Below are positions 4,971-64,000 of a stretch of DNA of 64,000 bases, one piece after another. The DNA is from Loxodes magnus. Its lineage: Eukaryota; Ciliophora; Karyorelictea; Loxodida; Loxodidae. Where the stretch lies: the NCBI GenBank assembly GCA_946699065.1, contig CAMPDV010000949.1:62001-126000 (forward strand), written 5' to 3'. The notes below the pieces were generated by a model. It worked only from the letters and a program-made list of their open reading frames with translations, ran no database searches and was not told the origin of the DNA. A program made the position numbers and the translations under genes. The first letter of the stretch is position 1; each line of letters starts with the position of its first letter.

Positions 4971-5360
4971 ATGCCTATGGATCAAGAAGAATTTCCTTCA
5001 TTTATTAATAATTGGGAAAATCATGCTTTCGACAAACAAAAATTATTGATGAAGAAGAATATTGAGAAAGTAAAAATCTATTATTAACTCAAATAAGTAA
5101 GAATTCTTCCAATTTACAAGAAAGCATATAAGAGTGATTAGAAGAATTGAAGGCCAATTACTTTCATTAATGTAATTTTAAAAATATATGATAAAATACT
5201 AACTTAAAGACTCTATAGATATATTTATTAGAGTAAAGCTATATTAGATTCATTTTAGATGGAACATTTCAAGAAATTAATGCTATTAAATGTGTGTATA
5301 TATGCTTTAAAACTAAGAATTAAAAAGGAAAAAACATTAATGTTAATATAAGTTTGAATA
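4971..5360 (+). pseudogene. Non-LTR reverse transcriptase fragment, fingers region (copy A)
   Basis: From the ATG at 4971, read with UAR=Gln and UGA=Trp, one frame gives L-P-I-Y-K-K followed by D-Q-K-N-W-R-P-I-T-F-I-N-V-I-L-K-I-Y-D-K-I-L-T. This is the fingers motif of LINE-type reverse transcriptases (N-[YW]-R-P-I-[ST]-L-L-N ... K-I). The Trp is TGA at 5148-5150. I find no palm motif (F-A-D-D) downstream in any frame, so this is a fragment. Upstream residues 1-40 include an ordinary TGG codon. It runs opposite to the EN relic at 6.4-8.7 kb and so belongs to a different insertion. Confidence 0.6.
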
Positions 5361-5578
5361 ATTAAGAAATTAGAAAATATAAGAGGCTAACTTACTTAGT
5401 ATATAATTTTCATTAAAACGAATATTATAAAATCCATTGCTAAGAAATATTCCAAATATATGAAAAATGTTTTAATGGATATGTATTATAGTTATTTAAA
5501 TATTAGAATACTTAAAATTAAAAAAAAATTTCAAGTATTTTTACTTCCTGAAGCTGAATATAGCTACGAAGTTATTCC

Positions 5579-6373: not shown

Positions 6374-6399
6374 ACATGTTTAAATAATTTTTCCAATCG

Positions 6400-8676: not shown

Positions 8677-9320
8677 ATTTTCCTATATTTTTTTCACCCT
8701 TAGACATCCCTCCTAAAACTTGATTTCGATGTTGTTTTAATCTTACTGATCTATCATAACAATCTCGAAAAGTTATTATAATTGAGTTTTTATCAAGAGT
8801 ATAGGAGTTATAATGGCTTGATTTTATAATTGGCTATAGAAGAACATTTTTAAGTATATATAGTAATTAGTTTAAATGATATAAAGGAAATAATTTATTT
8901 TAGATTTGAAGTTGTTGACTTGATGATAGTAGTGATGACTAAATTAGTTTTTAGATATAGGTATAGCTTAATTATTATTTGATTATAGTTTTGATTTGAT
9001 TAGATAAATAATAATCTAAGTAATACTTGTATAATTTGAATATAAGGATGTATTTAAATATAGTTTTTTTGACTGTGTTTGAATAAGTTTTTTGTATGTT
9101 ATAAGCTGTATGTTTTTATCTGAATAATGATAATATTTGAATAATAGATTTTTAAATTCGCTTAGATAAAATTTGATTTTTTATTTATTTCAGACGCTTT
9201 AAATATTTTAATAAGTAGTAACATATTTAGCTAATTATAGATCTTTAAACTACTTATTTATATATGAGACTATAATTATTATAAATAATATTAATAAAAT
9301 AGATATTATTATTATGTTTA

Positions 9321-10718: not shown

Positions 10719-10928
10719 TTTTATTATTATTTAGACTAAAAAAGCTATAAAGGTAATTTATAACAGTTACCATCAAAAATACAGTCAATAATATCTAAAA
10801 CTACATTATTACTTTATTTAGTTTATTTATTTAAAAGTACAATATTAGGATATTATATAAAGTACCAATCCTATATTCTGCAAGCCGCCAATCTTGGATT
10901 GAGACTGCTTATTAAATTTAATAAAGGT
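10719..10928. promoter_or_regulatory. Shared intergenic region between divergent RING-kelch and ORF1 genes (copy A)
   Basis: Only 210 bases separate the two start codons in A, and 210 in B (40,639-40,848). In C the gap is widened by an insertion (22,326-23,075). A bidirectional promoter is the simple inference. No individual motif is recognised. Confidence 0.35.
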
Positions 10929-11890
10929 ATGAAAGAGTTTTATAATTTAATCAGATCTTTGATTTTATTTTTAGGAAAAATATCTCTGTTGTAAAATCTT
11001 TGAACTACTAGAAGGAATGCACAAGAAAACGGGACAGAAATGTTAAAACTAAGTAGACTATCAAAAAAATAGATAATTTAGAACATCATGCAAGATAACA
11101 ACTCTATGCAAATCGTTATAATGGAAGAAGAAAAGAACAACCAAATTCCATAAAATGAGGAGAATATGCCGCTCAAAACTGCTAAAGAGCAGGAGTTAAC
11201 TATTTCAATAAATGTTTAGAAGAAAAATATTATAACCAAAGACTCAGTCCAGTAAAAATGCAAGAAAATGAAATTGTTCAAGCATTTCTCAGATATCTGA
11301 ATTAATAATATGGTAAAAATATTTAGAGTATGAAATTCCTTCAGACAGGAATAATTATTATATGATTTGAAAACAAGTAAAACTCGCACAATTTGAAAAT
11401 AATTAAACTGGAAGAGTAGAAATTTTTTAATACCAAAAGAGCAAAGAAACATAGAGGAATTCTACAACATTAATAACTACTTGATTCATTGAACAGTTAA
11501 TATCTATTCAAATTTGGACTAGGTAGAAACTCATCTATAGAAGTACGGAAAATAGTATGTACAGAGATCAGAATACAATTTGAGCCAATGGGAAAATGAA
11601 AAATTATTTAAAATTGAAGAAGATTAAAGATGCAGAAAATATACCAGATAAGTTAGACGAAGAAGGTATAAGCACTTACTTGAATCATCCATAAATTTTG
11701 AAAATGTATGAACTGTAACAAAAAGGGCATACTACAAATTAATACTTAAGAAAAAAGTTATAAGTTAGCAATTAAAAATACATTTGGAAATCAGGAATAA
11801 AATACCTTATTATAAAGAGAAACAGATCGTGAAGGAAATGAAAGTGAAGAAAACCGAAGAGAATTAACCTTCAAATAGAATACCACTTTT
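10929..11890 (+). pseudogene. Retrotransposon ORF1, RRM-like plus zinc knuckle (copy A)
   Basis: Copy of the ORF1 best seen at 23,076. The ATG, the Met/Gln-rich N-terminus and the knuckle (C-M-N-C-N-K-K-G-H, with His intact but the last Cys as Tyr) are present. Indels near 11,570-11,610 (the V-K-G-T-W-A-N-G region) and a one-base loss inside the knuckle move it between frames. Confidence 0.55.
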
Positions 11891-12845
11891 TATTTCTATT
11901 AAAGACAACAATTTTAAGCCATACTAAAGTTACATTAAAAGCGATCGACTTTAATAGATATTTAACTACAAAATTAAATAAATAAAACTAAGACGAAACT
12001 ATCAATTTCACAAAAACAGAAGTAAAATAGGAAATATGGCAAAATAACTGAAACAACTAGAAAACAGTGACAGGAAGGAAGTATGCATAAACACAACGCT
12101 GTCTCAAAAAAGATAGAAAAATATATAATAGTGAGAAAGACAGTATCGAGTAAAAAAATTGAAGACATAAGTACAGGAAAAATAATAAACATTAGAACGA
12201 TTTATTTTCACGCTATTAAAGAAAAGGAAGCTAAAAATGCAGGTTAGGAGGATCTAGACAAATAGGAAGTACAAAAAAGACTAATATAAATAAATAAATT
12301 AAGTTAGCCTGGTACCACCATTGTTTGGTTAGCCACGAAAAAATAAAGAAACCAAATTTAATTATTAATAATAGAAATGTTTCTAGCTTCATCTGTTCTC
12401 TTTGATTCTTATCTTCTTCTCTCAGTTTTTATAATCAAAATTGATTGTCTTCACTCTTCAAATTATTGTAATTCTTGCAAAGGCTGGAGTTTGAACGTAT
12501 TCCACTATTTGTGTCAAATGACCCAATTAGGATAAATCCTTTTAAAAATAGTTATTGTGATCTTTGTCATTTCTTCATTATTTTCTAAATTCCTGATTAG
12601 AATAGCGACATGTAAAATCAGGATAACTCTGAGATCTGGATTTCGGCTCCCTTTAGTCAACTTCTCGTACCGATAGAGAGAACCCTCAAAAAAGTAAGGC
12701 TTGTCACACAATGGGCCCGTTCTTACTTGTTTGTACTGGCATCTATTACAAGAGTACTTGCAGTGCAGACATGATTGCGCCGGATTGCCTACTTGATAAA
12801 CTAGAAACCAGAATCGTTTTAAAAATTAATATAATAAAATAGAAA

Positions 12846-19104: not shown

Positions 19105-20283
19105 TATTTAGTATCAAATATAAAATTAGGGTCACTTGCTTAGTCTTTTTCAAAACAAAATTACTCTAATGTTTGTATTTATGTTCAGGTTCTGCGTATA
19201 CTATTTTTCTGATATTATTTTTTTATTTATTATTGAAAGTGATTGCATCTATTAGTTGTGCAGTATAAGCTAGTTACTTGTTAAAACTTATTTTGCTCAA
19301 TGGGTTTTGGCGATGCCACCTTTTTCATGATGTTAAATTTTGATTTTTTCTTATCTAAGGTAGCTTAAATCATTTTATCCTAACATTTAATCAGTTAAAT
19401 GACCTTTTATTATTCTATCAATTATTGCTTATCTTACACGTAATTTCAATATTGATTTTAGCAATTTTTTTATTTAAGGGTTCAAATTTTTGCTTTCTAC
19501 TCATCTTAATTATTTCTTTAGGTTTCCTACTCTAATTTGTATCTTTATTTTAGTGGATTGTTTCTTGTTGTATATTTTACAATTTTTGATGTTTAAGCAA
19601 AATTGATTTTAACTATATTGCTTTTTATCTTCTTCATTACTTAATATTGCGTCCAATTTTTGGAAAGTCACACACCATAATATTGCCGGATGACTTAACT
19701 TTACACAAAATTTTATTTCTTTCTGTCAAGCAGGGATATTTTCTGGATAAGTGGCTTCTGGCTTCTGATAATTCTAAGTACATATTTATTCTATCATCAA
19801 GTCCTTTCGTTCCTTTTATTGTATGTAAAACTGTTTTTTTCATGTTTTTGAAGACTTTTTACTAATTTTGTTGGAACTAAACAGTTGCCTATACCTAAAA
19901 AGTGGGGAAATAGATAGCTATTATTGTTGTAGTATCCATTAATATTTCTCTTTTTGATAGAAATATCATAAGATTAATATTATCATTTTTTATATTAGAG
20001 AATTTATTAAGTTATTCTTAATCAGATAAAAAATTAGAATAAATCCAGTTGGCATTATTCATACTTAATCTATATGTTACCTAAATTATCTCTATATGTA
20101 TCCAAAGAGTCCCATTATTGCGACACATTATTTATTTTTTATGTTTGAGTTATAATTTTTAAAATGTCTCTCTATATAAAAATTGAGATAGATTACTCTT
20201 ATTTTTTAGATTAAGTTTTCTATTTTATTATTTTTAAAGTAGCTTATTTAGAAAATTTTATTTTCTGCTTATTAGTTCATCAT
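19105..20283 (-). pseudogene. ORF2 N-terminal relic, EN deleted (copy C)
   Basis: Matches the first ~1.2 kb of the ORF2 relic in A and B. The G-L-D-D-R-I-N-M-Y-L-E-L-S-E block at about 19,790 corresponds to W-L-D-G-R-T-T-M-Y-L-D-L-S-E in A. It is followed by I-L-C-K-V-K-S-S-G-N-I and V-C-D-F-P-K-I-G, which in A are split across frames. Homology stops at about 19,105, just before the endonuclease domain. The function of this N-terminal block is not recognised. Confidence 0.5.
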
Positions 20284-20921
20284 ATTTTCCTTTCTTTTTT
20301 CACACTTAGACATCCCTTCTAAAAGCTTGATTATGATGTTGTTTGTTAAATCTTATTTTTTTATCATATTAATCTAAAAAAAATATTATGATTGAATTTT
20401 ATCGACAGTATAGGGTTATAATGGCTTGATTTTATTATTAGCTATAGAAGAATATTTTTAAGTATATATAGTAATTAGTTTATATAATATATAGGAAATA
20501 ATGTATTTTAGATTTGAAGATGTTGAAATGATGATAGTAGTGATTACTTAATTAGTATTTAGATATAGGTATAGCTTAATTATTATTTGATTATAGTTTT
20601 TATTTTATTAGATAAACAATAGAGTAATCTAAGTAGTACTTGTATAATTTGAATATAAGGATGTATTTAAAGATAGTTTTTTTGACTGTGATGAATATAA
20701 GCAAGTTATAAACTGTATGTTTGTATCTGAATAATGATAATATTTGAATAATAGATTTTTAAATTTGTTTAGATAAAATTTGATTTTTTATTTATTTCAT
20801 ACGCTTTTAATATTTGAATAAGTAGTAACATATTTAATTAATTATAGATCTTTATACTACTTCTTTACATATTAAATTATATTTATTATAAATAATATTA
20901 TAGATATTATTATTATGTTTA

Positions 20922-22325
20922 TCAGCTATGACTTCTAATACTTCTATAACTCAATTTTTCTAAATCAATCCTCATTATTGAAACTCTTGGTTTTTCTATA
21001 GCGAAAACATATCCATAGCTATTTCTTATTTTCATCTCCGTTAAAGCTTCAACATCTTTAAAAATTTAGCTTTGTTGTCACTATTCTTTGCTTCTTTTAT
21101 ATATTCTTCTTTAATATTCTTTCGTTGAAAAATTTTTTACGCCTCCAAATATGATAAAAGGCTCTAAAGAAACTATAGGTCCAGCAACAGCTTCAGGAAG
21201 ATTCAAATTTTACTTACTCCATCTATCATTCTATATGTTATACTTTCATATATCTTTTAAAATCTATAGTTTTTAATTTCCACCTCCAAAAGAGTAAATA
21301 TTTGATTCATTTTTATCTACTACTAAAGCTTAAACTGCTATTTGGAATGGAAATTAAGAGCATTTTTTTCATTTACTTTAGTATCCTATCTATAACTTTT
21401 CTAATGATTATAGCCATTGATAATTATCAGTAAATCCTCCAACCACATAAAGGTATTTTTAAGCAGCTGCTATTCCAAAACCACTTCTTCCATCATTCAG
21501 ATCACTAAATTTTATTCTATTACCTTCATAATCGAACTACCAAGTTTCTTTTATTGCTTTATTTTAATTTTAGTTATATCCTCCTATTAAATATAACTTA
21601 TTTTAATATTCTATACTTTTATTTTCAACTGGAATTGTAATTTAAACTTAGACTTATCTTAATTACTCTGTTTAAATATTAAATAAACTTAATTTTTAAA
21701 TTTATCAATCAAAAAAGTGAATATAGTTAGATTATATAAAGTTTTAGCTTAGTTTATGCTAATTAGTCTAAATAATATTTGGTTACTTAGTATTCTATTA
21801 TAGTTTCTATCTTATTAGTGTGATATGACTTTAAGCTAATTTAGGGTTTAGTATTGTAGGTGGTTATGAGTTATATTAGAGTATAGTTGGTTTTAGTGAT
21901 TAGTAGAATTAGATAATATTTGAGTGTTATTTTTGGTAGATAAATGTTGGTTAATGATTGATGATGATATTAGTTAGTGGTATTATGAGAGTATTACTAA
22001 TGTTTGATTATTTGGTTGTAATGGTTTTAGATTTTTCCATAATTTACCTCCTTATCTCTTTTAATTTCTATGTAGCATCTTAAATCTTTTATATGTATTA
22101 TTAGTTTTAAAATATCACTCTTATTAAATCACTTTCTTAAGGTAAGTCTTCAAATCTAAAATGGAATCCTTTTTAACAAATAGGACATTACATTATGCCT
22201 TATAATCAGTACTGAGTATTCAAACACAAACCACAGTAAATATGTCCACAAGATAAGACAGTTGGAAGAGCATTAGTTAAGTTGTAATCTTCTAAGCAGA
22301 TTAAGCATTTTGGTAACGCTTACAT
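20922..22325 (-). CDS. RING finger - coiled coil - kelch protein (copy C)
   Basis: I read this copy codon by codon: 468 codons including a final TGA, no frameshift. RING residues are Cys7, Cys10, Cys26, His28, Cys31, Cys34, Cys47, Cys50. Kelch signatures in the C-terminal half: I-G-G-Y, E-T-W-Q-F-D, L-Y-V-V-G-G-F, I-Y-S-F-G-G-G, K-D-I-W-K-Y-N, N-D-R-W-S-K, F-I-I-F-G-G. Trp codons are mixed: TGG in E-T-W, N-Y-Q-W and D-R-W; TGA at 40 (RING), in S-K-W-K-K, at 360 (D-I-W-K-Y) and in E-Q-W-Q-Q. The alternative reading, with TGA as stop, would end the protein inside the RING before its last Cys pair. The gene lies head-to-head with retrotransposon ORF1 and upstream of an ORF2 relic on its own strand, so it may be the ORF1 of a LINE or a captured gene. 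Confidence 0.8.
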
Positions 22326-22505
22326 TTTTATTATTATTTAGACTACAAAAGCTATAAAGGTAATTTATAACAGTTACCATCAAAAATACAGTCAATAATA
22401 TCTAAAACTACATTATTACTTTATTATATAATATTAGGTATTATTCATTGATTATTATATATTAAATTGCTTTGCTCATTGTTCGAAGGTGAGCAACAAG
22501 GTCAT

Positions 22506-24520: not shown

Positions 24521-26930
24521 GAATTAAACATAGACACAGCAAATGTCAGATTAATAAAATAAAATAGAAGCATAAAAAAATTTATTTGTGAAAAGAAGAT
24601 AGAAATTATGGCGATTTAAGAAATATTTGTGAATCAAACTGCTGAAATACCTTATATATACGGATTCATAGAAACAATAAAATTGAGCACAAAACACTGC
24701 AAAGGAGTAGCATTTTATATAAAAGATGGAATTATCAGCAGAATCAAAGCGTTGGTTATAGCGGATCTCAATCAAATAGAATTATTTTAGTGGAAGATTA
24801 ATAGGTTTAGCAATTGATGATCGGCTGGAAGTGATAAATGTATATAGCACTACAACATCCGATTATGATTAACTAATACCCTTTTATGAAAGTCTATAAT
24901 AATATGAAACAGCAGTAAGCAGCAAAGGACTACAAATTTTAATATTAGGGGATTTAATGCTCATATTCCCCATCTTTTATCGTATGAGTAGAATAGGCAA
25001 GGTTAATACTTATTTAACTTGATGAAAGATTATCTTTAGAATGTAAAGATCCAAATCAAGATCCAACCTTCATCACAACGTAAGTGAAGAGAAAATTGAA
25101 AATGGAATAATTCTAAACGATCAATATATCACGACTAACATTATCAGAACAAAATTCTATCAATAGGAGATCATTAGCCAAGTAAAACAAAGATAAAAAA
25201 TGAGGAAGAATATCGAAAAAGCCCATAAATTAAAAGGATAAACTTTCAAATTTAAGGCATAAAAGGTTCAAGAGAGATTCAAAGAATGATTCGAGTAAAT
25301 AGATTTTAGCGAATTCGAAAATTTAGATAGCGAAGCATACTATGAAAAATGAGCAGAATGCATCCAAGAAGCGACCAAAGCGATATGTGGCTTTGTAATA
25401 AATTAAATGAGAAAATACTAAAATGCAGCAGAAAAAATAAAAATAAGAAAATACTTTTAATAGTAGGCGCAATAAGTAAATATCTAATTAGAAAGAATGC
25501 TAAGAAATTGATAATTATATTAAAATGAGTGAGAAGAAAGAGAAAATTTAGACTGAATCAAAAAAAAGATAGAAAAAATCAATTAAATATTTTCTTAGAT
25601 GAAATTAATTAAGGAAGCTTAAACAACACTTGAAAAGAAATATAAAAATGATTAAAGTAGAGAAAATATGCACCATGGACATTAATAAACAAAAAAGATA
25701 TCCAGAATTTCAAAAAAAGCTGAGAGGAGTTCTATAAAGTGATAGCAACAGATTACCAGACTCATACAGGAACACATAAATAATATAGGTTTAAAAAGAA
25801 GATTCAATGTGCTGAACTCTCCTAACGAAAAGCTGCAGGATCTGATGTAATATAAATAGGAGAAATAAGAGCTAGAGGAGATAAGTAATTTGCCAAACCT
25901 TAATATTAACATAAAAATAATAAATCTGGAGCTATGCCAATCAAAATTAAAGGATCTTTTATTATACTACTTCATAAAAAAGGTAGAGTGAAAAACCTAT
26001 GAATTATAGGTTGATTTCACTTTTAATTCATTCAGTAAAAATCATAGATCTCTGATTATTTGGATAAATGAACTCATACTTGAGCAGATGTGACTATGAA
26101 TTATAATATGGCTTCAAACAAGGCAAATTATATCATAGCAATCTACAATCTAAGAACTTTACAAGAATAACTTCAGCAAAATAATAAAGAAATGCAGTAA
26201 TATTTATTGATATTAAAAAAACATTTGATTCCGTAATAAGAGAAGACATATGAAAAACACTAAATGAAATTGAAATATCTTAGTAAATAATCAAGCTCAA
26301 TGTTGTATTTTACAAAGAAAGAAACAAAGATAAAAATAAATGATTTAATATCAGAACATTTTTAAACAGGGAAATTAGTTAAATTAAGTAGCACTTGTTC
26401 CCTAAGGTTATTCAATATTATAATTAATAAACTTCTCGACTAACTAAGATAAAATGAAATAGGAATAACCATAAGCATGGAATTAGAATAATATACAGAG
26501 GAAATATAGATGGGAGCATTTGCACATGCAGATGACATTGTAATGATGGTAAGTCCAGACTACAAGAGATGATTGAAATACTACAATAGTGATCGTAATA
26601 ATAAAATGAAAATTGCAGATAAGACGTAGTGAATGCTATGAAATGGAAAGAAATTACAAAGTTGACAAATAATATAAATAAATTAAAAACAAATAGAAAG
26701 AGAGAAGGAATATAAATATTTAGGAAATTGATTTAAAGAAAATTTTTCTTTTGAATAAAATGAACTGTCATTATTATGTCAAAATGTGTAAGCATGAATT
26801 TTTGGTAAGCTAGTTAAATAGAAAATAATAAGATAAATTTATAAATAATAGCATAACAACATAGCATAATTTACTAATGTAGCAGTGCTTTCAGACAAAC
26901 AATAAAAATAAAAAATGCTTTTTAAGAAAT
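24521..26930 (+). pseudogene. Retrotransposon ORF2 with endonuclease and reverse transcriptase (copy C)
   Basis: The most complete plus-strand pol. EN: E-L-N-I-D-T-A-N-V-R (Asn), A-I-Q-E-I-F (Glu), K-G-V-A-F-Y-I-K-D-G, and G-D-[F]-N-A-H at about 24,950 (one T lost, shifting frame). RT: N-Y-R-L-I-S-L-L at about 26,000 (P to L in the fingers motif), Y-G-F-K-Q-G-K, then motif A F-I-D-I-K-K-T-F-D-S-V followed by R-E-D-I-W-K-T-L with TGA for Trp at 26,251, and the catalytic motif H-A-D-D-I-V-M-M (GAT GAC at 26,531-26,536). Family: L1-like non-LTR retrotransposon with AP-type EN. Several frameshifts make this copy defective. Confidence 0.7.
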
Positions 26931-29934: not shown

Positions 29935-30204
29935 TTACAAAAAATGTATATCATAAACATTTTTTGAAATATGATGAAGTATAAACTACTGTTTTCTGTA
30001 TGAGGTTGCAATTCCTTTGTAATATAAAACTTTATTTTATCTTTGTTATTATAATTAAGATGATTAAAGCTAAATAATTTATTTCAGATTTAAATTTTTT
30101 ATTAAATTAAATAAATAAAACATAAATAATATATTAATTTATAAAAATAAACAAATAAAAAATTGCTAAAATTAAATTTTTAATTATTAATAATTTAATT
30201 TAAA

Positions 30205-30494
30205 TAGGGTCGTCCTTAACTTTTAAGGTCGCGAGAAGAATTCCCCAGAGATGTACTGACTGTGAAACAACCTTTTCTAAATGTTGGACCTGATTAATCT
30301 CTTAATCATGGGTTGGAAATCAACCTGTAATCGCCTTTTGGCGTTCTGTGCTTTGGGGATTTTGAACCACTACCTTCCTTACAAATAGAAGAATGCTATG
30401 GGAATATTGGAGATTAATGAGATTTATAAATTGACTTTTTTAAAGAGATGCGCCTTATTATAGGGCTACGCACTCTATAATAACGCTTTTTTTT
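30205..30494 (+). ncRNA. Structured-RNA candidate (copy B)
   Basis: The second copy of the island at 271-560 is identical in all the hairpins, the long-range helix and the T-run as far as I can read. Because the whole flanking region was duplicated recently, the identity does not by itself prove selection. Confidence 0.5.
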
Positions 30495-33400
30495 ATAAAA
30501 ATAAATTTGAGTTTAAAGCTAATAAAAAAAATGTATTTAAAAAGAATTAAAATTGAATATAAATAATTATGATATTTATTGATTTTCAATTACTAAAAAT
30601 AATAAAATGGTATATTTGAATATATTAAAAAAACTATCTTGTACAGCTTTTTATAATTTAAATATAATATACTTTTATAATTTAATGAATTGTAAAAATT
30701 TGTTAATATTAAACTAATATTTGATTATAATTAATATAAAATAAAGATGCTATATTTAATATTTTTAATTTTCAGTAAAAATTGTAATATTTGAATATAT
30801 AATAAAAATATATATTTTATTAATAATAAATATTTTAAAAATTATTAAAATGGCTTAAAATTTTACTTTAGAGGTTATTTATTATTTGAAACTATAACAA
30901 CAAATATCCTTGTTTAATATAAAAAATAAAAATGTAATTTTCTGTAGCATAATTTTAATATAAGTTTAATTTTGTAAGCTAAGTATTTAATTTGATAATT
31001 ATAATGATTTAGTTCAAACTTATTAATTATAAATATAATTTAATTTATATATTAAATACTTTTTACTCTATATAAAATGTTTATTTTATATATCAGTTTA
31101 ATTTTAACTTCTCTTTACTATGAAGAAATATTTATTTTACTTATTTAAAATAAAATAATTTATTAGTTTTAATAAGCAAATCTTCTATAATTTATGATTA
31201 TTTTAGATAATCCAAAACTTTTAAATTTTGAAAGACTTAATTATTTTAATATTTGATTTGCTAAAATAATTTACTATGATATAAAGGAATGAAAATGATA
31301 ACTAGAGTTAAGATTTAATTAATGTAACATTTATAAAACTGAATTAAAATTTTAATTAGTTAAAGAAGTTAAAATGTATTTACTTTTAATTAATTAACAA
31401 ATATAATAAACTTCTAATTCCTTTTGTGCTTTAATAACTGAAAATATATTATATTGATGCTAATATTATAGCTTAGTAATTTTAAATAAGTGAATTGAAT
31501 ATATTAATAATTAGCTAATTAAGTATTTAAATATTATGTATATTAAATTATAAACTAAATTCATTCAAATTATATTCTTAAACTTTTAATTACTTCAATA
31601 CTAATAATCCTTTTATAAACTATAACTTATTAATATCATCATTCAAATCCAACTATATTATGCTAATGCTCCTTATATCTAACTACACCAGTCAAACTAA
31701 ATTACTTTGTTATAATCAATACCTAATAGTTAACAGACCCCCATTATTTAATATAGAAACAGAATCAAGAACTTAAAATAAATGTCTTCATTCCAAAATT
31801 TACTAAAATTATTTATTTTGAAATACCACTTTAGAAATTAGTACCAGATATAAAAGAAGAAAATATATATTCATTTAGAGGAGTAAATTAAACAAAGTTA
31901 TAAATTATATATGAAACCATAATATGTAGAATGATACATCAAACTAATTATTTCAATCTTCAAGAACTTCTTTCTTTTCCGTTAGTGTTATTAGAACCTC
32001 TTATTATGGAAGGAGGAATCAAATAGAATATTCCAGAAAAATATATAAAAGAAAGAATGAATAATGATAATAAATAGAATTTAAACATAATTATTATAAT
32101 TTATCAGGATTTAAAACTCGAGATATATTTGCTTATTCCCCTGGTCTAGATATATCAAACCTTAGTGTTGAGAATAGATGTAGGAAATTTGAATTACAAG
32201 AATATAAGAATAGTATAAAGAGAGAAGACTAAATATTTAAGTATTTTTATGATTAAAAAGTATTTAATAATAACAATTTAAATATAACAAATAGATAAAA
32301 AAGGCTAATTTCTTATTAATATTTTGACTGAATTATTATAGGGAAACTTTTAGTAGCTGAATTACTTTTGTCTATGTTAAACCCTTCTTTAATCAATAAA
32401 TTTAGATTTAAGTTGTTCATACATTTAATGATAGTAATTGATGAATACTTCTAAAGCTCTCTAGATAAATTTGTAGTCTTGAAGTAAATTTTTTATTGCA
32501 TTTAAATTTTTTCAATTTCCATCTTATCTGCTTGAGGTTAGTTTTTTAAATGATAGATTAAATTCTTCTTTAATTTTCTCTGAATTTGTTGCTATGTTTT
32601 TACTATTAATACAAATTTGGAAATTAAGGCTTCATCTTAAAATTAAACTTAACTTACCAAGTCTTGATTTTCCTTTTTTTATCTAACAAAAGTTACCGAA
32701 GATTTTATTTTTTCGCCTTCAATATCCATTTTTCTGTATTAATTTTCTCAATTAAGTAATAAAACTGAATAATGTTTTGCTCATGGAGTTTCTCAAGCTT
32801 TTTTAGTTTTTTATGAGATTCAGTATTTTAAATCCTTAACAGGAGTAGATTTATCTTTTTGAATTTTTGGTTGTTGTTAGTTAACTGAGACTTAAGATTG
32901 ATCTATGAGATTAGAATTGAAGGTTTAAATTTGGAGATTTAGTTGGTATTTTTGATGCATAGGATGTATAAAGTAATTATATTTGATAATTTGAGGAGTA
33001 AAATGTTGATATAAACAATAATATTGGGATATAGCAACTAAAAATATATAAGAAAATTATTAATAGCAATTGATTGCAATATGTATCATTTATTAATAAA
33101 AAGCTTTATATATTTTAATTACAATACTTTTTAAAGTTTTATTTTAAATACAATAAGCAAAAGTTTAGACTAAATTTAATTATAATGTTTTTTTCTAAAT
33201 GATTTGATTTTTTTAATATTAATGATACAATGTTAGCATAAAGTAAATGATTAGAAAAATATAAAAATAAATAAAGATAACTAAAAATAAATAGCAATAT
33301 TTTCGATTATTTATTAGATTTTTAGAATAAGAATATTTAAAATTATTAAATTAAATATATTTTAGGCACTTTAGTTATTGCTTTTATTATATATATGAAT

Positions 33401-34894
33401 GGTCAGATTTTAATTTATTTTTATAATGTCAATGGTTTATTTCTTTTATATTTTAGTATCTGAGCATTTTTTTTGTTTTATTTAGAAACGGATATGATTT
33501 TTTTCTATTTCAATGATCTTTTTGAGTTTTGAAATGAAAATATTTGATCTCTAAAAGAGAATTAGAATATAAATTAAGATATGAATTAGAAGTTAAACTC
33601 CTAAGAATAGCCTTAAAAGCAGACTAAGTTAGTTTAAATTAAGATTATAGCATCTACTAATTTGAATCTATATAATATATAGTTATAAACAGAGTAGAGA
33701 GATTTAGAATGTAAAGAAGAAGTATAATTTTTAAATTGATATTTATACCTAAAATTAAATAATTATTTTATCTATATTTTTAATTATTTTTGCCTATTAA
33801 AATAATTTAATAATATTTATCCTTTTTATATAAATAAGCTATAAATTTAAAAAGCTAAAGTTGAAGGTATATTATAATTAAATTATAAGTTATTTACATT
33901 AAATATATTTAAGAGTAAGAAATCTAGATAAAGTATTTGGCCAAAGAAATTTGGTTATTTCATAGAATACATTTTTTATAGAATATATTAGGGAAAATTA
34001 AAAAAGAATAAAAATGTTCTAAATATCTTAATCTATTTTTAAGATAAATGGAAATTGTATTAATTAAATATTTAATTAATTTTAGTTTGAGAAGATTGTA
34101 TACATTATCATAAATATGCTTATTCAAATGTTATACTATTAATTAAATCTTTTTGCAAAATTGATTCCATTAAATATTTAATTTATACAAGCATCACTTT
34201 AATTAGTTAAATGAAGTAGTTTTGCTAAATTATAATTACTTAAATATTATAATTTAACTTAAGCTTTTTAAAGTTATTATTTTAATTAGATTATTAGCAT
34301 ATCTTTATAACCAAATTAGGTTTATATTCTTTAATTTAATTGATAAGCTAAAATATACTTTTATTTATAATATTTATCACTTTCCTTTTTTACTTAGTTA
34401 TATACTTAAACAATTAATAGAGATAGACAATACTTGCTCCTAGAATTAAATTTAAGATTTGTAAACTTTATAATATGATAATAAGGGAAGAATATTATAA
34501 TAAATTTAATGGATACTTAGTTTATTTTGAACTAATTTAGGGATATAACTTAGAACAATAATATAGATATATTCTACTAATTCTCTATAATAATGCTAGT
34601 CACCTTCTTTATTAAGTTAGTTAAAATACTATAATCAATTTCCTTGAAGGATAATTCATACTTTTAATGCTGCCAAATAACCATATATACCTTATTCAAA
34701 TGCGTTAATATCAGGCAAGAGAAAATTAACAAGTAATATAACTACCATAAGAAAAATACATTTAATAAGTATAAACGTAATTACTGATAATATAAGTCAA
34801 AATAGGCTAATCAAATAGACAATTCATTAATTAATCCTCTTTAACAATCTTTAAATAACCAACGAAACTTTTAAATCAGAGGAAAATTAATTAT
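30495..34894. other. AT-rich stretch without a supported gene (copy B)
   Basis: Near-identical to 561-4,970; nothing recognised. Confidence 0.6.
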
Positions 34895-35290
34895 ATGCCT
34901 ATGGATCAAGAAGATTTCCTTCATTTATTAATAATTGGGAAAATCATGCTTTCGACAAACAAAAATTATTGATGAAGAAGAATATTGAGAAAGTAAAAAT
35001 CTATTATTAACTCAAATAAGTAAGAATTCTTCCAATTTACAAGAAAGCATATAAGAGTGATTAGAAGAATTGAAGGCCAATTACTTTCATTAATGTAATT
35101 TTAAAAATATATGATAAAATACTAACTTAAAGACTCTATAGATATATTTATTAGAATAAAGCTATATTAGATTCATTTTAGATGGAACATTTCAAGAAAT
35201 TAATGCTATTAAATGTGTGTATATATGCTTTAAAACTAAGAATTAAAAAGGAGAAAACATTAATGTTAATATAAGTTTGAATAATTAAGA
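34895..35290 (+). pseudogene. Non-LTR reverse transcriptase fragment (copy B)
   Basis: Near-identical copy of the fragment at 4971. One A is missing near 34,911 compared with copy A (six codons after the ATG), so the initiating ATG is out of frame with the N-W-R-P-I-T motif here. The motif itself is intact. Confidence 0.55.
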
Positions 35291-35502
35291 AATTAGAAAA
35301 TATAAGAGGCTAACTTACTTAGTATATAATTTTCATTAAAACGAATATTATAAAATCCATTGCTAAGAAGTATTCCAAATATATGAGAAGTCTTTTAATG
35401 GATATGTATTATAGTTATTTAAATATCAGAATACTTAAAATTTAAAAAAATTTTCAAGTCTTTTTACTCCCTGAAGCTGAATATGGCTACGAAGTTATTC
35501 CA

Positions 35503-36286
35503 TGAACGATTCTAAGATGCATTGGAAAAATAAGAAATAAATAAATATTAGTTTAAGAAAAGTAGCAAGATATGCATTCTAAAGTTCAAACTCAACAATT
35601 AAAAAATCATGCTTCATAGACTTGAATTGATACTTTGTAAGTACTACATAACCATGAGATATTTAAACTTTTATTTTAAATTATGTTAAGAAACATAAAC
35701 GAATTCTGACTCTGAAATTGCTTTTTTATAAGAAAAAAAATTGCAATCTGAGATATTTTAAAACTTGGAGAAATTAACTTTATATTTTTAAATAGATGAA
35801 TAGAATATTGAAGACAGTAAAAAATTTGAAATAAAGCTTATAAATAAATAAAAATTCTTTTAAGATTCTACAGAAAGCATGAGATCAATGTAAAATACAC
35901 ATTTTACTTTGAAGATATTGATAAAGAAACAAGATAGTTTCCATTTTATACATATATGAAACTAAATAAATTAATGATTAGAAAAATAATTCTTTTTTTA
36001 CAAATTTAGAACCTTTTTTATAATTTCTAATTTGATTTATAACAAAGACACTTCAAAATTAAGTACCCTGAGATAATACAATAGGGTAAAATGATCCGGA
36101 TAAAATTGAAGCGGTAGAACAAGAACATGAGCAATAATTAAAATAGAACTTATGAATAAGATGTAAATAAAAAGTTTTATTACCTATATGAAAATATAGT
36201 AAAGACTTATTAATTGTTATTATTATTATATGGAAAAAATATCTTTTATTTTTGCTGTTCAAATTGCCTTTTTTTTGATTTTGTTC
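35503..36286 (+). pseudogene. Copy B of the unrecognised membrane ORF, frameshifted
   Basis: Compared with copy A this copy has eight instead of nine A residues in a poly-A run near 35,735. It also lacks one AAAT unit in an ATAA microsatellite near 35,845. The two losses total five bases, so the frame is not restored. Either copy B is dead, or A carries the errors and the ancestral frame differs. Confidence 0.4.
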
Positions 36287-36312
36287 ATGAACATGTTTAA
36301 ATAATTTTTCCA

Positions 36313-38591
36313 ATCGATTTTCTCCTTTTTTTATATATTTTTTTCAATCTTATGATTATTTAGTATACAATATTTTTTTGCCTTGTCTTATTAAATTTTT
36401 TACTTTTTTTGCTATTTTTTTAATTATTTTTTAAACACTTTGTTTCTTATGTAAATTTTTATTTTCTTAAAGTATTACAACGCATCCACAAGTTTATTTA
36501 ACTCCTTCTTAGATTAATTTTTATTTTTAGTAGTAAAATTCATCATCTAGCTTATCGAACTTCAAAGAAAATGTAAGAGATATTCACTATTTAAACTTTT
36601 CCTATGTTTTTCCAATTTTAAGATTTTAGTAATACAACCTTCTTCTTGTGATATAATCTACTTTTTTCTGCTATTTTAACTATTAGTTATCCAGGCTAAT
36701 GATTATCTAGTATTTCTCTAGAAAAAAATTTGTATGCTAATTATGCTCGAAGTGATTTATTAGTACGTTAAAAAATATAATTTTAAACTTTCTTTTCCTG
36801 TTATAGTAATCAAGGTTGGGTATTATGATGGATCACTGAATTCTAATTTTAATTCTTTCATTTTATTTAATAACAACTAAAATGTTGGGTTTAGTTCATT
36901 TGGTAGAAATTATTGTATATATGCATTGAAATATCCTTCTTTAATATTTTAAAAACTTAAACTATTTGATAAGTATTTGAATTGTCTTAGGAATTCATAT
37001 AAAGGGATTTATTATTCTTGCTCAAGTTTGTAGGCGTTTATATATTAATAATTGTAAGATTATCATCAGGACCCTCGCAAATTATTCTACCATCTTCGAG
37101 TATTTCATTTTAGTTTAATCCATTTGAATCATTCTCTTTAGTTCTGTATAAAAATTGTTCTTTAATATATATAGCCACTCCTTTACTATGACTAATTCCT
37201 TCTTTGTATTGATACACGGTTTCCGAATATTTAGAGTATATCTTTAATTGAATCTATAAACATTTCTTGAGCTGCCATAATATATGTGTCTTATTCAATT
37301 ATGAATTTACATAAATCTTCTTGTTCGACTTGATTCCTCTTGCATTATCAGTTCCTATATTTAATTAGTTTCAAATATTCAAATTGTCTTAATCTTCATT
37401 ATTTGATTCTTTCTATTTAGTATATACTATCAATTTAGGGTTACTTGCTTTGTCTTTTTAAAAACCGAATTACTCTAATGTTTGTATTTATGTTCAAGTT
37501 CTATGTATACTATCTTCTCTGATATTATTTTTCTATTTATTATTGAAAGTGATTGCTTCTATTAATTGTGGAAGCAAACTAGTTACTTGTTGGAATTTAT
37601 TTTGTTCAATGGGTTTTAACAATTCCACCTTTTCTTATGGTATTAAACTTTAGCTTTTCCATAGATTTAAGGTAGCTTAAATGATTTTTAAAAGAATTTA
37701 TTAAGTTAAATGATCTTTTATTATTTTATCAATTTTTACCTATCTCAGGTGTAATTTAGTTAAGCAATCTTTATTCTTTAGGATCCAAATTTTTGCTTGA
37801 TACTCGTCTTTATAATTTCTTTAGGTTTTCTATTTTTATTTATGTATCTTTTATTTTATTGTGTTATTTCTTGTAACATATTTTACCACTTTTTTATGTT
37901 CATGCATAATTGATTATTAACTTTATTTATTTTTATCTTCTTCATTACTTAGTACTGTATCTAATTTTTTGAAAATTTTCACATCATTTATTGCCAATTG
38001 ATTTAACTTTGCATATAAATTTTTTCTTCCAGTTAAGTAGGAATATTTTCTGCATAAGTGACTTCTGATAAATCTAGGCTCATAGTTGTTCTACCATCAA
38101 GTCATATTGTTTCTTTTACTGTATGTAAAATTGTTTTTTTTGTATTACCAAAGGTTTTTAGCTTTTTTTCTGTTGGAACTTAACTTTTGTCTTTACTTGA
38201 AGAGAAGTGAATTAGGTTTTTATTATTGCTGTAGTATTCATAAATATTTTTCTTCTTGAACGAAATATCAAAAGATTAATACTATCATTTTTTATGTTTG
38301 AGAATTTATTAAGTTATTCTTAATCAGAGAAACAGTTATAATAAATGCAGTTGGTATTATTCGTACTTAATTTATATGTATTCTAAATTCTCTTTATCGA
38401 TACTAGAGGTGCCATTAATGCAACACATTATCTATTTTTTGTTATGCTTGAGTTGTAAATTTGCAAATTTTCTTTCTCTATAAAATTGAGATAGATTATT
38501 CTTATTCTTAGATGAAGTTTTCTACTTTATATTTATTAAAGTTGCTTATTTTATAAAATTTTATTTTCTACTAATTTTATTAGCTAGACAT
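36313..38591 (-). pseudogene. ORF2 relic with endonuclease domain (copy B)
   Basis: Copy of 6,400-8,676. The EN core lies at about 36,917-37,372 with the same T-D-N-A-R-G, S-K-G-V-A-I and D-G-R-I-I blocks and the same frameshift between the Asn and Glu blocks. Identity with A is near 99% up to about 38,005 and lower beyond. No RT domain follows. Confidence 0.6.
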
Positions 38592-39234
38592 GTTTTCCTA
38601 TATTTTTTTCACCCTTAGACATCCCTCCTAAAACTTGATTTCGATGTTGTTTTAATCTTACTAATCTATCATAACAATCTCGAAAAGTTATTATAATCGA
38701 GTTTTTATCAAGAGTATAGGAGTTATAATGGCTTGATTTTATTATTAGCTATAGAAGAACATTTTTGAGTATATATAGTAATTAGTTTAAATAATATAAA
38801 GGAAATAATTTATTTTAGATTTGAAGTTGTTGAATTGATGATAGTAGTGATTACTTAATTAGTATTTAAATATAGGTATAGCTTAATTATTATTTGATTA
38901 AAGTTTTGATTTTATTAGATAAATAGTAGAGTAATCTAAGTAATACTTGTATAATTTGAATATAAGGATGTATTTAAAGAAAATTTTTTTGACTATGTTG
39001 AATATAAGTATGTTATAAGCTGTATGTTTGTATTTGAATAATGATAATATTTAAATAATAGATTTTTAAATATGTTTAGATAAAATTTAATTTTTTATTT
39101 ATTTCAGACGCTTTAAATATTTTAATAAGTAGTAGCATATTTACTTAATTATATATCTTTAAAATTCCTTTTTATATATGAGACTATAATTATTATAAAT
39201 AATATTAATAATATAGATATTATTATTATGTTTA

Positions 39235-40638
39235 TCAGTTATGACTTCTAATACTTCTATAACTCAATTTTTCTAAATCAATCCTCATTATTGAAACTCT
39301 TTCCTATTCTAAAGCAAAAACATATCCATAGTTATTTCTTATTTTCATCTTCGTTAAAGCTGCAACATCTTTAAAAATTTAACTTTATTCTCATTAATCT
39401 TTGTTTCTTTTATATATTTTTCTTGAATATTCTTTCGTAAATGCATTTTTCACACCTCCAAATATGACAAAAGGCTCTAAAGAAACTATAGGCCCAATAA
39501 CAGCTTCAGGAAGACTCAAATTTTACTTACTCCATCTATCATTCTATATACTATATTTTCATATATCTTTTAAAGCTTATCCTTTCTAATTTTAACTTCC
39601 AAAAGAATAAATATTTTATTCATCTTTATCTACTACTAAAGTTTAAAAAGCTATTTAGAATGGAAATTAAGAACAGTTTTATCATTTACTTTAGTTTCCT
39701 ATCTATAACTTTTCTACTGATTATAGCCATTGATAATTACTTGTAATTCCTCCAACCACATAAAGATATTTTTAAGCAGCTGCTATTCCAAATTCACCTC
39801 TTCCCTCATTTAGTTCACTAATTTTTATACTATTACCTTCATAATCAAATTATCAAGTTTCTTTTATTCCTTTATTTTAATTTATGTTAATTCCTCCTAT
39901 TAAATATAACTTATTTTAATATTCTATACTTTTACTAAAATCTGGAATTGTAATTTAAATCTGGATTTATCGTAATTACTCTGTTTAAATATTAAATAAA
40001 CTTAATTTTTAAATTTAGTAATCAAAAAAGTGAATATAGTTAGATTATAAAAAACGCTAGCTTAGTTTATTTTAATTAGTCTAAATCTTATTTGGTTACT
40101 TAGTATTGTATTGTAGTTTCTATCTTATTAGTGTGATATGATTGTAAGTTAACTTAGACTTTAGTATTGTAGGTGGTTATGAGTTATATTAGAGTATAGT
40201 TGGTTTTAGTGATTAGTAGAATTAGATAATATTTGAGTGTTATTTTTGGTAGATAAATGTTGGTTAATGATTGATGATGATATTAGTTAGTGGTATTATG
40301 AGAGTATTACTAATGTTTGATTATTTGGTTGTAATGGTTTTAGATTTTTCCATAATTTACCTCCTTATCTCTTTTAATTTCTATGTAGCATCTTAAATCT
40401 TTTATATGTATTATTAGTTTTAAAATATCACTCTTATTAAATCACTTTCTTAAGGTAAGTCTTCAAATCTAAAATGGAATCCTTTTTAACAAATAGGACA
40501 TTACATTATGCCTTATAATCAGTACTGAGTATTCAAACACAAACCACAGTAAATATGTCCACAAGGTAAGACAGTTGGAAGAGCATTAGTTAAGTTGTAA
40601 TCTTCTAAGCAGATTAAGCATTTTGGTAACGCTTACAT
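39235..40638 (-). CDS. RING finger - coiled coil - kelch protein (copy B)
   Basis: 1,404 nt, the same length as copy C, with no length changes in the stretches I compared. The RING segment is almost identical to C, including the TGA at residue 40. The kelch half differs from both A and C by many substitutions but keeps its glycine pairs and length. Three copies that diverge by roughly 10% yet keep one frame suggest selection on the protein after duplication. Confidence 0.75.
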
Positions 40639-40848
40639 TTTTATTATTATTTAGACTACAAAAGCTATAAAGCTAATTTATAACAGTTACCATCAAAAAT
40701 ACAGTCAATAATATCTAAAACTACATTGTTACTTTATTTACAGTAGTTATTTAAAAGTACAATATTAGACTCTTATATCAAGTAGCTATCTCACAATCCA
40801 TATGCTGCCAATCTTGGATAGAGATTGTTAGGTAAATTTAATAAAGGC

Positions 40849-41860
40849 ATGAAAGAGCTTTACAATTTAATCAGATCTTTGATATTATTTTTAAGAAAAA
40901 CGTCTCTGCCGTAAAATCTTTAAACTACTAGGAGTAATGCACAAGAAAAAGGGACAGAAATGTTAAAACTAAGTAGCCTATCAAAAACATAGATAATTTA
41001 GAACATCATGCAAGATATCAGCTCTATGCAAATCGTTATAATGGAAGAAGAAAAGAACAAGCAAATTCCATAAAATGAGGAGAATATGCAGCTCAAAACT
41101 GATAAAAGAGTAGGGGTTACCTATTTCAATAAATTTTTAGAAGATAATTGTTACAACCAAAGACTCAGTCCAGCTGAAATGCAAGAAATTTAAATTTTTC
41201 AAGCATTTCTCAGATATCTAAATTGCGAATATGGTAAAAATATTGAGATTATGAAATTCCTTCAGACAGGAATAATTATTATATGATTCAAAAATAAAGA
41301 AACAATCACACAATTTGCAAAAAATTAAACATGAAAGAGTAGAAATTTTGTAATACCAAAAGAGCAAAGAAATATGGAGAAATTCTACAACATTAATAAC
41401 TATCTGATTCATTGAACACTTAACATATATTCAAGTTTGAACCAGATAGAAACCCATCTGGAGCAGTACGGAAAAATAGTATGTATAGAAATCAGAACCG
41501 TAAAAGGTACTACGTGAGCTAATGGGAAAATGAGAATTTATTTAGCATTGAAGAAGATCAAAGATGCAGAAAGTATACCATATAAGTTAGACGAAGGAGT
41601 TATAAGCACTTACTTGAGTCATCCATTAGATTGAAAATGTATGAACTGTAACAAAAAGGGCTTAGCTCAAATTAATTCTTAAGAAAAAAAGCTATAAGGA
41701 AAGCATTTAAAAATGCTAAGGAAGTAAAAACCTTGTTGATTCATTCTGAAATCAGGAATAAAATCCCTTACTATAAAGAAAAATAAATAGCGAAAGAAAA
41801 GAAAGTGAAGAAAACTGAAGAAGATTGGCCTTTAAATAAGATTCTACTTTGAACTTCTAG
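40849..41860 (+). pseudogene. Retrotransposon ORF1 (copy B)
   Basis: Open in one frame for about 270 codons from ATG 40849 through the RRM-like segment to W-K-C-M-N-C at 41,630-41,650, with seven TGA at Trp-like positions and no TGG. One base is missing just after the second Cys compared with C, so the rest of the knuckle and the K-E-V-K-T-L-L-I-H-S-E-I-R tail lie in another frame. The frame of the first 270 codons is well supported by agreement with copy C. Confidence 0.6.
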
Positions 41861-42261
41861 CGAAAGCAACAAGTTTAAGCCATACTAAAGTTACTTTAAA
41901 AGTGATCGACTTTATCAGATACTTAACTACAAAATTAAATAAATAAAACTGTACGAAATTATTTATGTAAAAAAAAACAGAAAGTAAATAGGAAATATGG
42001 CAAAAAAACTGAAAAAAAGTATAAATTAGTGATAAGAAGGAAGTATGCAAAACACAAAGCTGTCTCAAAAAAATAGAAGATATATAATGACAAGGAAGAT
42101 AGTATTGATTAAAAATATAAGATAAAATTACAGGAAAAATAATAAACTTTTAATTATTTGGTTTTCACGCTATAAAAGAAAAGGAAGCTAAAAATGCAAG
42201 GTAGAAGGATCAAGAAAAATAGGAAGTACAAGGAAATACTAAAATAATAAAATAGATAGAA

Positions 42262-61464: not shown

Positions 61465-64000
61465 TCAACACAATTTCTTTCACTACTCTGCTTCATCTAT
61501 ACTTTTATTACTAGCTATTCTTTCTTCGCATTTCTTTTCATCTTAAACTTAGATTTCGCATTAAGATTATTCTAATGTTAAATCAGCTTGCTAAGAATTC
61601 TACACTTCATTTTACTATTAAGTTTCTTCAAGAGTCTCCACAATTGTCTTTAAATCAGCTGTCTTTTTTATAAAAACTTTATTAAACTTACGGTTACTTA
61701 AACTTGCTTATTTTTTATTTATTTTGCTTGCCTTTTTCAATTTTTTATGACTGAATATCTTTGATTCTAACTAAATTTAAGACTATATTTATTAACCAAA
61801 TGAACTATTATTTGATTAATAGGATTATTATGTCTGATTTGAATAGTTTTAGGTTTTAATTTCTTCTTGATGACTATTTTAATTAGTAATAATATTACTT
61901 GGATTATTTTAAATTTAGCTTCATATCTATAAGAATCACTTAATTCTTTAATTTCAATATTCTGTTTGTGTTAATATGAAGTTTCTAGAGTTTTAGTTAT
62001 ACAGTTCATATAACCCAATGCTGATTAAATATGATCACTCCATTTATTTTAAGATAGTTATATCTTCTTTCTACTTAAAATGAAGGGTTAGTTTTTTGGT
62101 ATGCTTATTTTCTTAGTTTAGGTTATAAAATTAAACTTCTTCTTTATCATTGAAGATCTTTATCCTTTTTCTTCTTAATATTGAGGAAATCTTATTTTAG
62201 CATTTCCTTCATTTACTCTATTAGTCTCTAAGATAATTTCCTTCTTACTTTTCCCATTAATTAATAGTTTCCATTAAATCTAACTTTTATTAAAAGCAGA
62301 TAAAGCAAAACCATGTTTTGAGATATTTTCTATAGTATTGACTTCCAAAGAGAAGTATAAAGTAGTATATCCAGACAAGAATGAAGTATACATTAGCAGC
62401 AACTAGTAGTATAAAAGAAGCGATATCAATAATTAAGTATCTTTATCCAGAATCAAAATAGATACCTATATATAGTGTAAATGCTGATACATATAAGTAA
62501 ATAGCTTCTAGTTTATTAAGCTCTTCTTTTATATAAGGATTATTTTACCTCTACAGATAAATAAACACCAGCAGTACAAGAATTAAGCATCAGAACTAGA
62601 AAATTATAGTATTCTTCTATAGAAAAATAAAAATAAAGGAAATTTAAAATTTCTAGTAAATTTTGAATATTTCTCAGTAGTAGAAATTCTCTTTATACCC
62701 TATTGTTAGAAACCCAAACTAAGACTTTATTTAGTAGGATTTTATTATTTTTCTCTTCCTATATAAGTAAATAAAAACGTTAAAAGGAACAAAAAACGCA
62801 TACAGAAGTAGTGAAGGTAAACCAAATATTAAGACAAACTTTATATGCCTTCCCTTTCAACATTATATATCAGTATAAGAGTTTAGAACGTAATAGTCAT
62901 CTTCTATCTTATAGCAACTAAAAACACTAAAAATAGTAGAGGTTAAATTAGTACAAATTTGGAAGTAGGAAACACTCATTATAGTTATAAAGATAGAATT
63001 ATTAAACTTTTTATATTTTATGCAAGAGTATACACTCACTAATACAAGGGATACTACTAAAATTATTAAAGGTAACATCAAAATGCTCAATACTTTGCTA
63101 TAATAAAACTCTTCTCCTTCTTAAAATAAACAATCTATTTTCAAGATATTAGAAGTTTATGCGGTAATTCTTTAATTTGCTTCAAAGTAGCTTTTAAATA
63201 CATTTGATCAATCAAACTAAAACTTCTAAATTAAAGAAGAAAATTAGAAATAGTTAGTTAATACTTTTAAATGAACCCCATAGTAAGACTCTTACTTTTC
63301 TGCTGATTTAAGAGTTTGAACTACTAAGTATATAACGAAAATGATGAATATTGTTATAGTAAAAGTACCAAATAAGATAGATTATCTTTTACTTAAACAT
63401 TTTTGGCACTCATTTATATCATTTTTTGTTCAATCTTTCTCGCAAACGTCACACATAACACCTTTATAACCTTCAGCACATTCTCCTTTTCAATTAATTC
63501 CTTTCTTGAGATCTTCTCTATTTTACTAATCAGTGGTTTATAAATAAATATCCACAAAACTATCATTTAAAGTAGTTCCTTTACATGCTTTGCTATTAGG
63601 ACATTCATGAATATTATCTGTTTCAAAACTTTTTCTTCAAAATCCTTTTTTAGGTCCAATCAAATCACTTCCATAACATGTCGAACCAGCAATACACTCT
63701 TTGCATTTCAGATCGCTTTAGTTAAAGGAATATTATCCATAAAGACAATTATAGCATGAATTACCCTCTATAAGTATTTATCCTTATAAGCATTTCTAAA
63801 TGTATACTTCCATATTAAGTTTATTGATAAACTTTAAGTTAAAAGGTAAAGTATCAATATCAATGGCATTGGTTTCTATATATAAGCTAATATTAGTTTT
63901 TGGTATTGCCTTTAAAATTACATCCTAAAAATCAAGCACACCAAGTTCAGCTTATACTCTAGTTTTTCCTGATAGCTCTGAATCACTGTTATTGGAATTA
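61465..64000 (-). CDS. Cys-rich, ~7-TM membrane protein (5' end outside the window)
   Basis: About 845 codons in one uninterrupted frame, entering from the right edge. Ectodomain: repeated Cys motifs (C-Y-N-C-L-Y-G; C-K-E-C-I-A-G-S-T-C-Y-G), G-F-W-R-K-S, E-C-P-N-S-K-A-C-K-G, C-A-E-G-Y-K-G-V-M-C-D-V-C, C-Q-K-C. These are familiar from large EGF-like/TNFR-like membrane proteins of ciliates and other protists. About seven hydrophobic segments follow between about 63,345 and 62,345, including F-D-W-S, L-P-S-L-L-L-Y-A-F-F, Y-K-E-N-F-Y-Y-W-E and L-N-K-L-E-A. Then comes a Gln/Ser/Asn-rich cytoplasmic tail with E-T-L-E-E-T-Q-Q-Q-N-E-V. At least eight Trp are TGA (for example 63,637-63,639 and 62,674-62,676); TGG occurs in V-W-I-Y-Y, T-W-F-C-F and Q-W-E-K. 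The stop is taken as TGA 61,467-61,465, where composition weakens. Function unknown, perhaps a surface receptor or adhesion protein. Confidence 0.75.

Follow-up and report, generated by a model that had tools for sequence, protein, structure and literature searches.

A codon with both a sense and a stop meaning probes how termination works, and the karyorelict ciliates are one of the few natural cases. Passages of Seah et al. 2024 (PMC11441545) place the karyorelicts, Loxodes included, under NCBI translation table 27: UGA is the sole stop codon, and is read as Trp where the poly-A tail is sufficiently far downstream; the 3' untranslated regions of Loxodes magnus are short. Excerpts of published work also propose control of UGA termination by the transcript end for Loxodes and its relatives; under table 27, sense UGA is expected to be depleted over roughly the last 20 codons ahead of the stop. 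The stretch considered here, called the window, is 64,000 nucleotides of L. magnus DNA (C949:62001-126000, C949 being contig CAMPDV010000949.1). At its right end lies the 3' part of a long membrane gene with many in-frame TGA codons; this gene and its copies, a set of conserved genes, and the tRNA and release factor genes of the same assembly were read for what these codons mean.

The code found here shows no clear departure from the one published for L. magnus, as the passages of PMC11441545 describe it: UAR is Gln, UGA is Trp inside genes and stop at resolved ends, and the genome is large and repeat-rich, with a fall in GC after the stop. The apparent TAA end of a Dom34-like gene, taken up below, stands apart. 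Condylostoma magnum (excerpts of Swart et al. 2016, PMC4967479) shares UGA as Trp, UAR as Gln, context-dependent stops and the failure to find a UCA tRNA-Trp; it differs in that all three codons also stop, whereas here TGA alone does so (7/7 resolved ends). Two further lineages are described in portions of PMC12153298 and PMC12005148. In Blastocrithidia the release factor eRF1 is changed at the same serine (Gly there, Ala here); unlike in Loxodes, UAR is Glu and UAA is stop. In Amoebophrya the unpaired bases of the tRNA-Trp stem, U and C, match those found here; seven TrpCCA genes are predicted there, one of them with a 4-base-pair (4-bp) stem, as against 124 pattern matches here.

The DNA is almost certainly from the somatic genome of L. 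magnus, or of a very close karyorelict, and uses the karyorelict code (UAA and UAG as Gln; UGA as Trp internally and stop at ends) by a mechanism that would turn on a 4-bp tRNA. Codon meanings, terminal TGA, tRNA genes and eRF1 sequence are direct observations on this assembly. A preliminary description of the window had already proposed UGA as Trp, UAR as Gln and UGA also as stop; the masked alignment of gene copies, the conserved-gene sites, the gene ends, the tRNA and eRF1 genes and the published code bear it out. The present results confirm the UGA=Trp/stop code of Loxodes; as that code is in print, the confirmation adds little.

The window gene and its copies

Within the window the gene runs for 839 codons on the minus strand (63999 to 61483) with 12 in-frame TGA. 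The preliminary description gave about 845 codons and at least eight TGA, which holds in outline; the end that it took, 61465, is the second of two TGA, and the window edge cuts the gene. Beyond that edge the reading frame stays open as far as an ATG at C949:130,895, making a gene of 2,471 codons with 21 TGA, 4 TGG, 180 TAA+TAG and 37 CAA+CAG, and a terminal TGA. A hydrophobic, signal-like stretch (judged by eye) follows the ATG, then beta-helix repeats; Pfam Beta_helix scores 77 bits on the upstream part with TGA masked. The gene had been called 'host-type': the long reading frame is real, but it sits in a repeated segment. A search of the 705,730,643-base assembly (7843 contigs) gave 54 scored matches among 3,877 candidates, the gene's own copy included, and several contigs carry two copies in opposite directions; for both reasons the gene belongs to an amplified family and is no typical single-copy gene.

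These copies permit a test that presupposes no code (34 distinct copies of the 39 fetched were aligned, with the window copy as query). With TAA, TAG and TGA all masked, Trp is found in 8 of the 22 columns with TGA and in 6 of the 817 without it (P=1.5e-10), and is the sole clearly enriched residue; the runner-up is Thr, P=0.13. TAA columns are most enriched in Gln (23/127 against 25/712, P=2.6e-8), followed by Glu (1.5e-3) and Lys (7.6e-3), and TAG columns are also most enriched in Gln (12/64 against 36/775, P=1.1e-4). The copies share ancestry, and all these P values are a guide only. A second alignment of these copies, in which the three codons are not all masked, has 26 TGA columns.

Codon by codon, five of the 12 TGA codons (190, 264, 470, 655, 682) alternate with TGG among the copies, and two of the three TGG codons of the window part (543, 582) appear as TGA in other copies (Table 1). 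To this extent the claim that TGA falls on conserved Trp positions stands; several points weigh against it. Of the 12 sites, 655 has Leu and 693 has Ser in most other copies, and neither shows a conserved Trp; the third TGG codon (563) codes Trp solely in the window copy. The motifs G-F-W-R-K-S and Y-Y-W-E, on which the claim had leaned, supply no independent Trp, because the other copies carry TGA there too (one has Ile at the second). A separate point against the code as read here is that, among 29 distinct copy tails, 10 have a frame shift at the gene end and 2 stop short of it. Distant copies vary chiefly at third codon positions (copy L039 has 235, 170 and 386 changes at the first, second and third position); this excess is weaker or absent in some closer copies (105, 89 and 110 in L038).

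Conserved genes and gene ends

Nine TGA sites from five conserved genes were aligned to known structures with TGA masked as X. The single TGA of the tyrosyl-tRNA synthetase (TyrRS) gene stands opposite Trp in 5/5 printed alignments, gap-free; with no gap there, a spliced intron is excluded at that codon, which answers, for this one site, the concern that TGA might be removed as introns. At the first site of Pol III RPC2, Trp is present in both alignments with a residue there (a third has a gap); at the second, Trp is present in two of three and Phe in the other. The TGA of an organelle-type TrpRS is opposite Trp in one of five alignments and Phe in four. Other sites speak against Trp: the third TGA of RPC2 is at a variable position, RPA2 has one TGA opposite Tyr in 4/4 alignments and two at variable positions, and the TGA of RPB2 faces Tyr in 2/2. 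In all, Trp stands opposite 4 of the 9 sites in one or more of the printed alignments and Tyr opposite two, and three sites are variable. The sites suit Trp better than any non-aromatic residue, though single sites are not all proof. Two long WD40 arrays (L001, L002; C1503) consist of near-identical 126-base repeats, many of which carry one or two TGA. In those repeats that were read, TGG encodes the canonical WD tryptophan, and TGA stands in GHAD-(TGA)-V and RT-(TGA)-IGH, where sister repeats have Ser or Phe. These positions are compatible with Trp, and are not proof of it.

Gene ends are TGA in 7/7 resolved cases and TAA or TAG in 0/7. In the two eRF1 copies, TyrRS, RPA2 and RPB2 the structure alignments place this TGA at most a few residues from where the reference proteins end, and GC content drops across it, from 32-36% to 10-25%; the terminal TGA of RPC2 and of a second RPA2-like gene was judged by eye. 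In four genes the last sense TGA precedes the stop by 147, 250, 322 and 957 codons, and in the second RPA2-like gene (L055, whose two TGA were read by eye and lie outside the nine aligned sites) by 41; these are too few for statistics. The two RPA2-like genes, L053 (C45) and L055 (C22), have a TGA at apparently the same site, preceding I-P-(Y/N)-M.

With TGA at all seven resolved ends, the code fits karyorelict table 27 better than the Condylostoma code; the preliminary description had named both, and the first of these is retained. Passages of PMC11441545, which give UGA as the sole stop of L. magnus, agree. A Condylostoma-type code (table 28), with all three codons both sense and stop, would accommodate a case that weighs against UGA as the only stop: the last exon of a Dom34/pelota-like gene (L003, C2, minus strand; named by eye) apparently ends at an in-frame TAA, and the next TGA in that frame is distant. 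The same paper, in part, reports that UAA, like UGA, is depleted just before stops in L. magnus. The Dom34-like gene may have a UAA stop or an unseen intron; against the seven TGA ends, the wider code is very improbable. Scarcely credible is a reading in which the TGA codons are premature stops, within pseudogenes or copies of a repeat, or fall in short introns. Its attractions are the repeated segment in which the window gene sits (54 matches), the frame-shifted ends of some copies, and the reverse transcriptase (RT)-like fragments of the window, which library searches do not recognise; it is opposed by the alternation of TGA with TGG among the copies, by TGA at Trp sites in TyrRS and RPC2, gap-free in the better alignments, and by the third-position excess of distant copies such as L039. 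As the karyorelict code has it, internal UGA is Trp in the copy alignment, TyrRS and two RPC2 sites, and UAA/UAG is Gln in the masked copy alignment, alongside a tRNA pattern with UUA/CUA anticodon.

The tRNA-Trp and eRF1 genes

The preliminary description had pointed to tRNA-Trp and eRF1 of the same genome as a check; both were found, as tRNA-Trp(CCA) genes with 5-bp and 4-bp stems and as eRF1 with S70A. Two eRF1 paralogues lie on C196 (L004, L005), 91% identical over 1,788 aligned bases. Relative to human eRF1 (chain 1dt9_A) the first carries E55A, F56H, T58R, S60Q, S70A and Y125F, and the second has the same N-domain motifs. Excerpts of the literature give Ser70 (67 in yeast numbering) as Gly in Blastocrithidia, and report Ala in ciliates with sense UGA. 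In both paralogues the terminal TGA is followed by another in-frame TGA three codons on.

Three tRNA-Trp(CCA) genes on C110 (L059, L060, L067) have the full 5-bp anticodon stem. In a second type (L066, L068) the stem is UUCGA/UCGAC, that is, 4 bp with a U27.C43 mismatch; cmscan flags the top stem pair as non-standard, and ARAGORN calls tRNA-Trp cca. An array of tRNA-Trp genes on C148 surfaced in a BLAST search (best 40 of 131 candidates scored). A pattern for the 4-bp type, with bases 41-43 open and CCA or UCA permitted, has 124 genomic matches (52 forward, 72 reverse), and the reversed-pattern control has 0. Among the 100 of 124 matches listed, 48 are on C67, recurring about every 187 bases, and 52 are on C148, recurring about every 241; all 100 have anticodon CCA and C43. 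The 5' half of the anticodon stem was read in two C148 genes only, and the 4-bp stem of the other matches is a prediction. One CCA tRNA-like sequence (L062) was dropped, at 17.9 bits against a gathering score of 29 and with no ARAGORN call. Two papers citing Swart et al. state, in the relevant portions, that 4-bp tRNA-Trp(CCA) occurs in Loxodes; tandem tRNA-Trp arrays or their copy number were not found in the literature searched, and the size of the array is possibly the sole unreported point.

By analogy with described systems, we infer that a near-cognate tRNA-Trp(CCA) reads internal UGA, and that the U27.C43 mismatch would loosen its anticodon stem to 4 bp; near-cognate reading of UGA by 4-bp tRNA-Trp comes from published work, cited here from excerpts. 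This tRNA would compete with an eRF1 whose action on UGA is impaired by S70A and the other N-domain changes, and near the mRNA end, as decider, termination would win. That a cognate tRNA-Trp(UCA), overlooked by the searches, translates UGA instead of the 4-bp CCA form is unlikely. The three earliest tRNA-Trp patterns were too narrow to pick up the array genes, and a further type might likewise have escaped; the assembly may also be incomplete. Against this, no tRNA-Trp(UCA) gene was found by four genome patterns that allow CCA or UCA, the three UCA-type matches fetched are not tRNAs by ARAGORN, and the 100 listed matches, of 124, are all CCA. Nor, in the portions of the literature at hand, is a UCA tRNA-Trp reported in Condylostoma, Blastocrithidia or Amoebophrya.

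With decoding by the 4-bp CCA tRNA as the preferred reading, one may go further, tentatively: Loxodes tRNA-Trp could be split into a few 5-bp genes for UGG and a tandem-amplified 4-bp form (>100 copies, two arrays) for UGA, whose dosage might outcompete the S70A eRF1 except at transcript ends. This remains somewhat doubtful and is not the main claim, because tRNAs with UUA/CUA anticodons and others are also arrayed, and because misassembly of low-complexity repeats affects assembly size, as noted in passages of PMC11441545, the paper on the 706 Mbp macronuclear assembly. The UUA/CUA pattern, presumably of tRNA-Gln, has 260 matches, some in tandem, with 0 in the reversed-pattern control (letters are shown for 4 matches, all UUA); amplification is therefore not special to Trp. 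The 4-bp arrays are all the same the part most worth following up: with both stem types of tRNA-Trp gene present in one assembly, and the 4-bp type multiplied in tandem, dosage against eRF1 would be open to direct measurement.

Further tandem tRNA genes or tRNA-pattern matches occur on C103, C78, C158, C130 and C214, their periods ranging from about 275 to about 1753 bases. A tRNA-Met(CAT) and a tRNA-Trp(CCA) lie about 700 bases apart (L059:697-769 and L059:1472-1544); nearly the whole tRNA body is common to the two, which differ mainly in the anticodon arm.

Coordinates and other features of the window

The five TGA codons named in the preliminary description are all present in the frames it gave; those of the window gene, the RT-like fragments and the kelch gene are located in Table 1.

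Table 1. Features of the window gene and other TGA sites (window coordinates unless a contig is given; counts are of sequences in the copy alignment)
Feature	Position	Strand	Copies or basis
3' part, 839 codons + stop, of 2,471-codon gene	61480..63999	-	frame reading
N-terminal signal-like + beta-helix part	C949:126000-130895	-	right of window; frame extension, Pfam
TGA codon 121, G-F-(TGA)-R-K-S	63637..63639	-	TGA in 33/33 covering sequences, window gene included
TGA codon 170	63490..63492	-	TGA 32, Phe 1
TGA codon 190	63430..63432	-	TGA 32, TGG 1, Ile 1
TGA codon 264	63208..63210	-	TGA 29, TGG 5, Phe 1
TGA codon 381, C-(TGA)-K-G-R-H-I	62857..62859	-	TGA 35/35
TGA codon 442, Y-Y-(TGA)-E	62674..62676	-	TGA 34, Ile 1
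TGA codon 470	62590..62592	-	TGA 28, TGG 6, Leu 1
TGG codon 543	62371..62373	-	TGG 29, TGA 6
TGG codon 582	62254..62256	-	TGG 28, TGA 6, Met 1
TGA codon 597	62209..62211	-	TGA 31, Leu 3, Asp 1
TGA codon 655	62035..62037	-	Leu 24, TGA 8, TGG 2, Gln 1
TGA codon 682	61954..61956	-	TGA 33, TGG 1
TGA codon 688	61936..61938	-	TGA 34/34
TGA codon 693	61921..61923	-	Ser 24, Tyr 5, TGA 4, Leu 1
TGA read as stop	61480..61482	-	TGA at or near alignment end in 17/29 distinct copy tails, window gene included
Another in-frame TGA, five codons past the first; may act as back-up stop	61465..61467	-	frame reading
TGA in D-I-(TGA)-K-Y, RING/kelch gene	21246..21248	-	same TGA in kelch copies at 9645-9647, 39559-39561
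TGA in N-(TGA)-R-P-I-T, RT-like fragment	5148..5150	+	identical second copy at 35071; RT identity by eye
TGA in D-I-(TGA)-K-T-L, RT-like fragment	26251..26253	+	RT identity by eye

Sites in RT and kelch genes had been offered as further family-conserved Trp positions, and neither set could be upheld. Both RT-fragment stretches are without a Pfam match at E 0.01, and the first (the 5148 site) is without a PDB match at E 1; these sites were set aside as weak evidence for UGA as Trp. The statement that the code extends to mobile elements is good for the presence of TGA in these fragments, less so for their identity, which library searches do not recognise. The kelch TGA was set aside likewise. 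It stands opposite Glu in the sole printed PDB chain that reaches the site, a point against Trp, and reading TGA as Trp (1567 aa) instead of X (640 aa) moves the Pfam scores by +1.8 bits for Kelch_1 and +2.2 for Kelch_4, by -0.7 for Kelch_6, -1.2 for PF24981 and -4.7 for PF24681. Since the scores shift both ways, on stretches of unequal length, the comparison decides nothing.

The window holds three copies of the kelch gene, at about 7498-10818, 19105-22425 and 37414-40738, and a segmental duplication of 12.4 kb (1-12294 and 29935-42251, 96% identity). Elsewhere, a divergent inverted pair of the window gene lies within long inverted repeats on C2250 (30258-55757; L046-L048), with a spacer of about 10 kb. 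To the right of the window gene, C949:142780-149999 (L051) is a large tandem repeat array.
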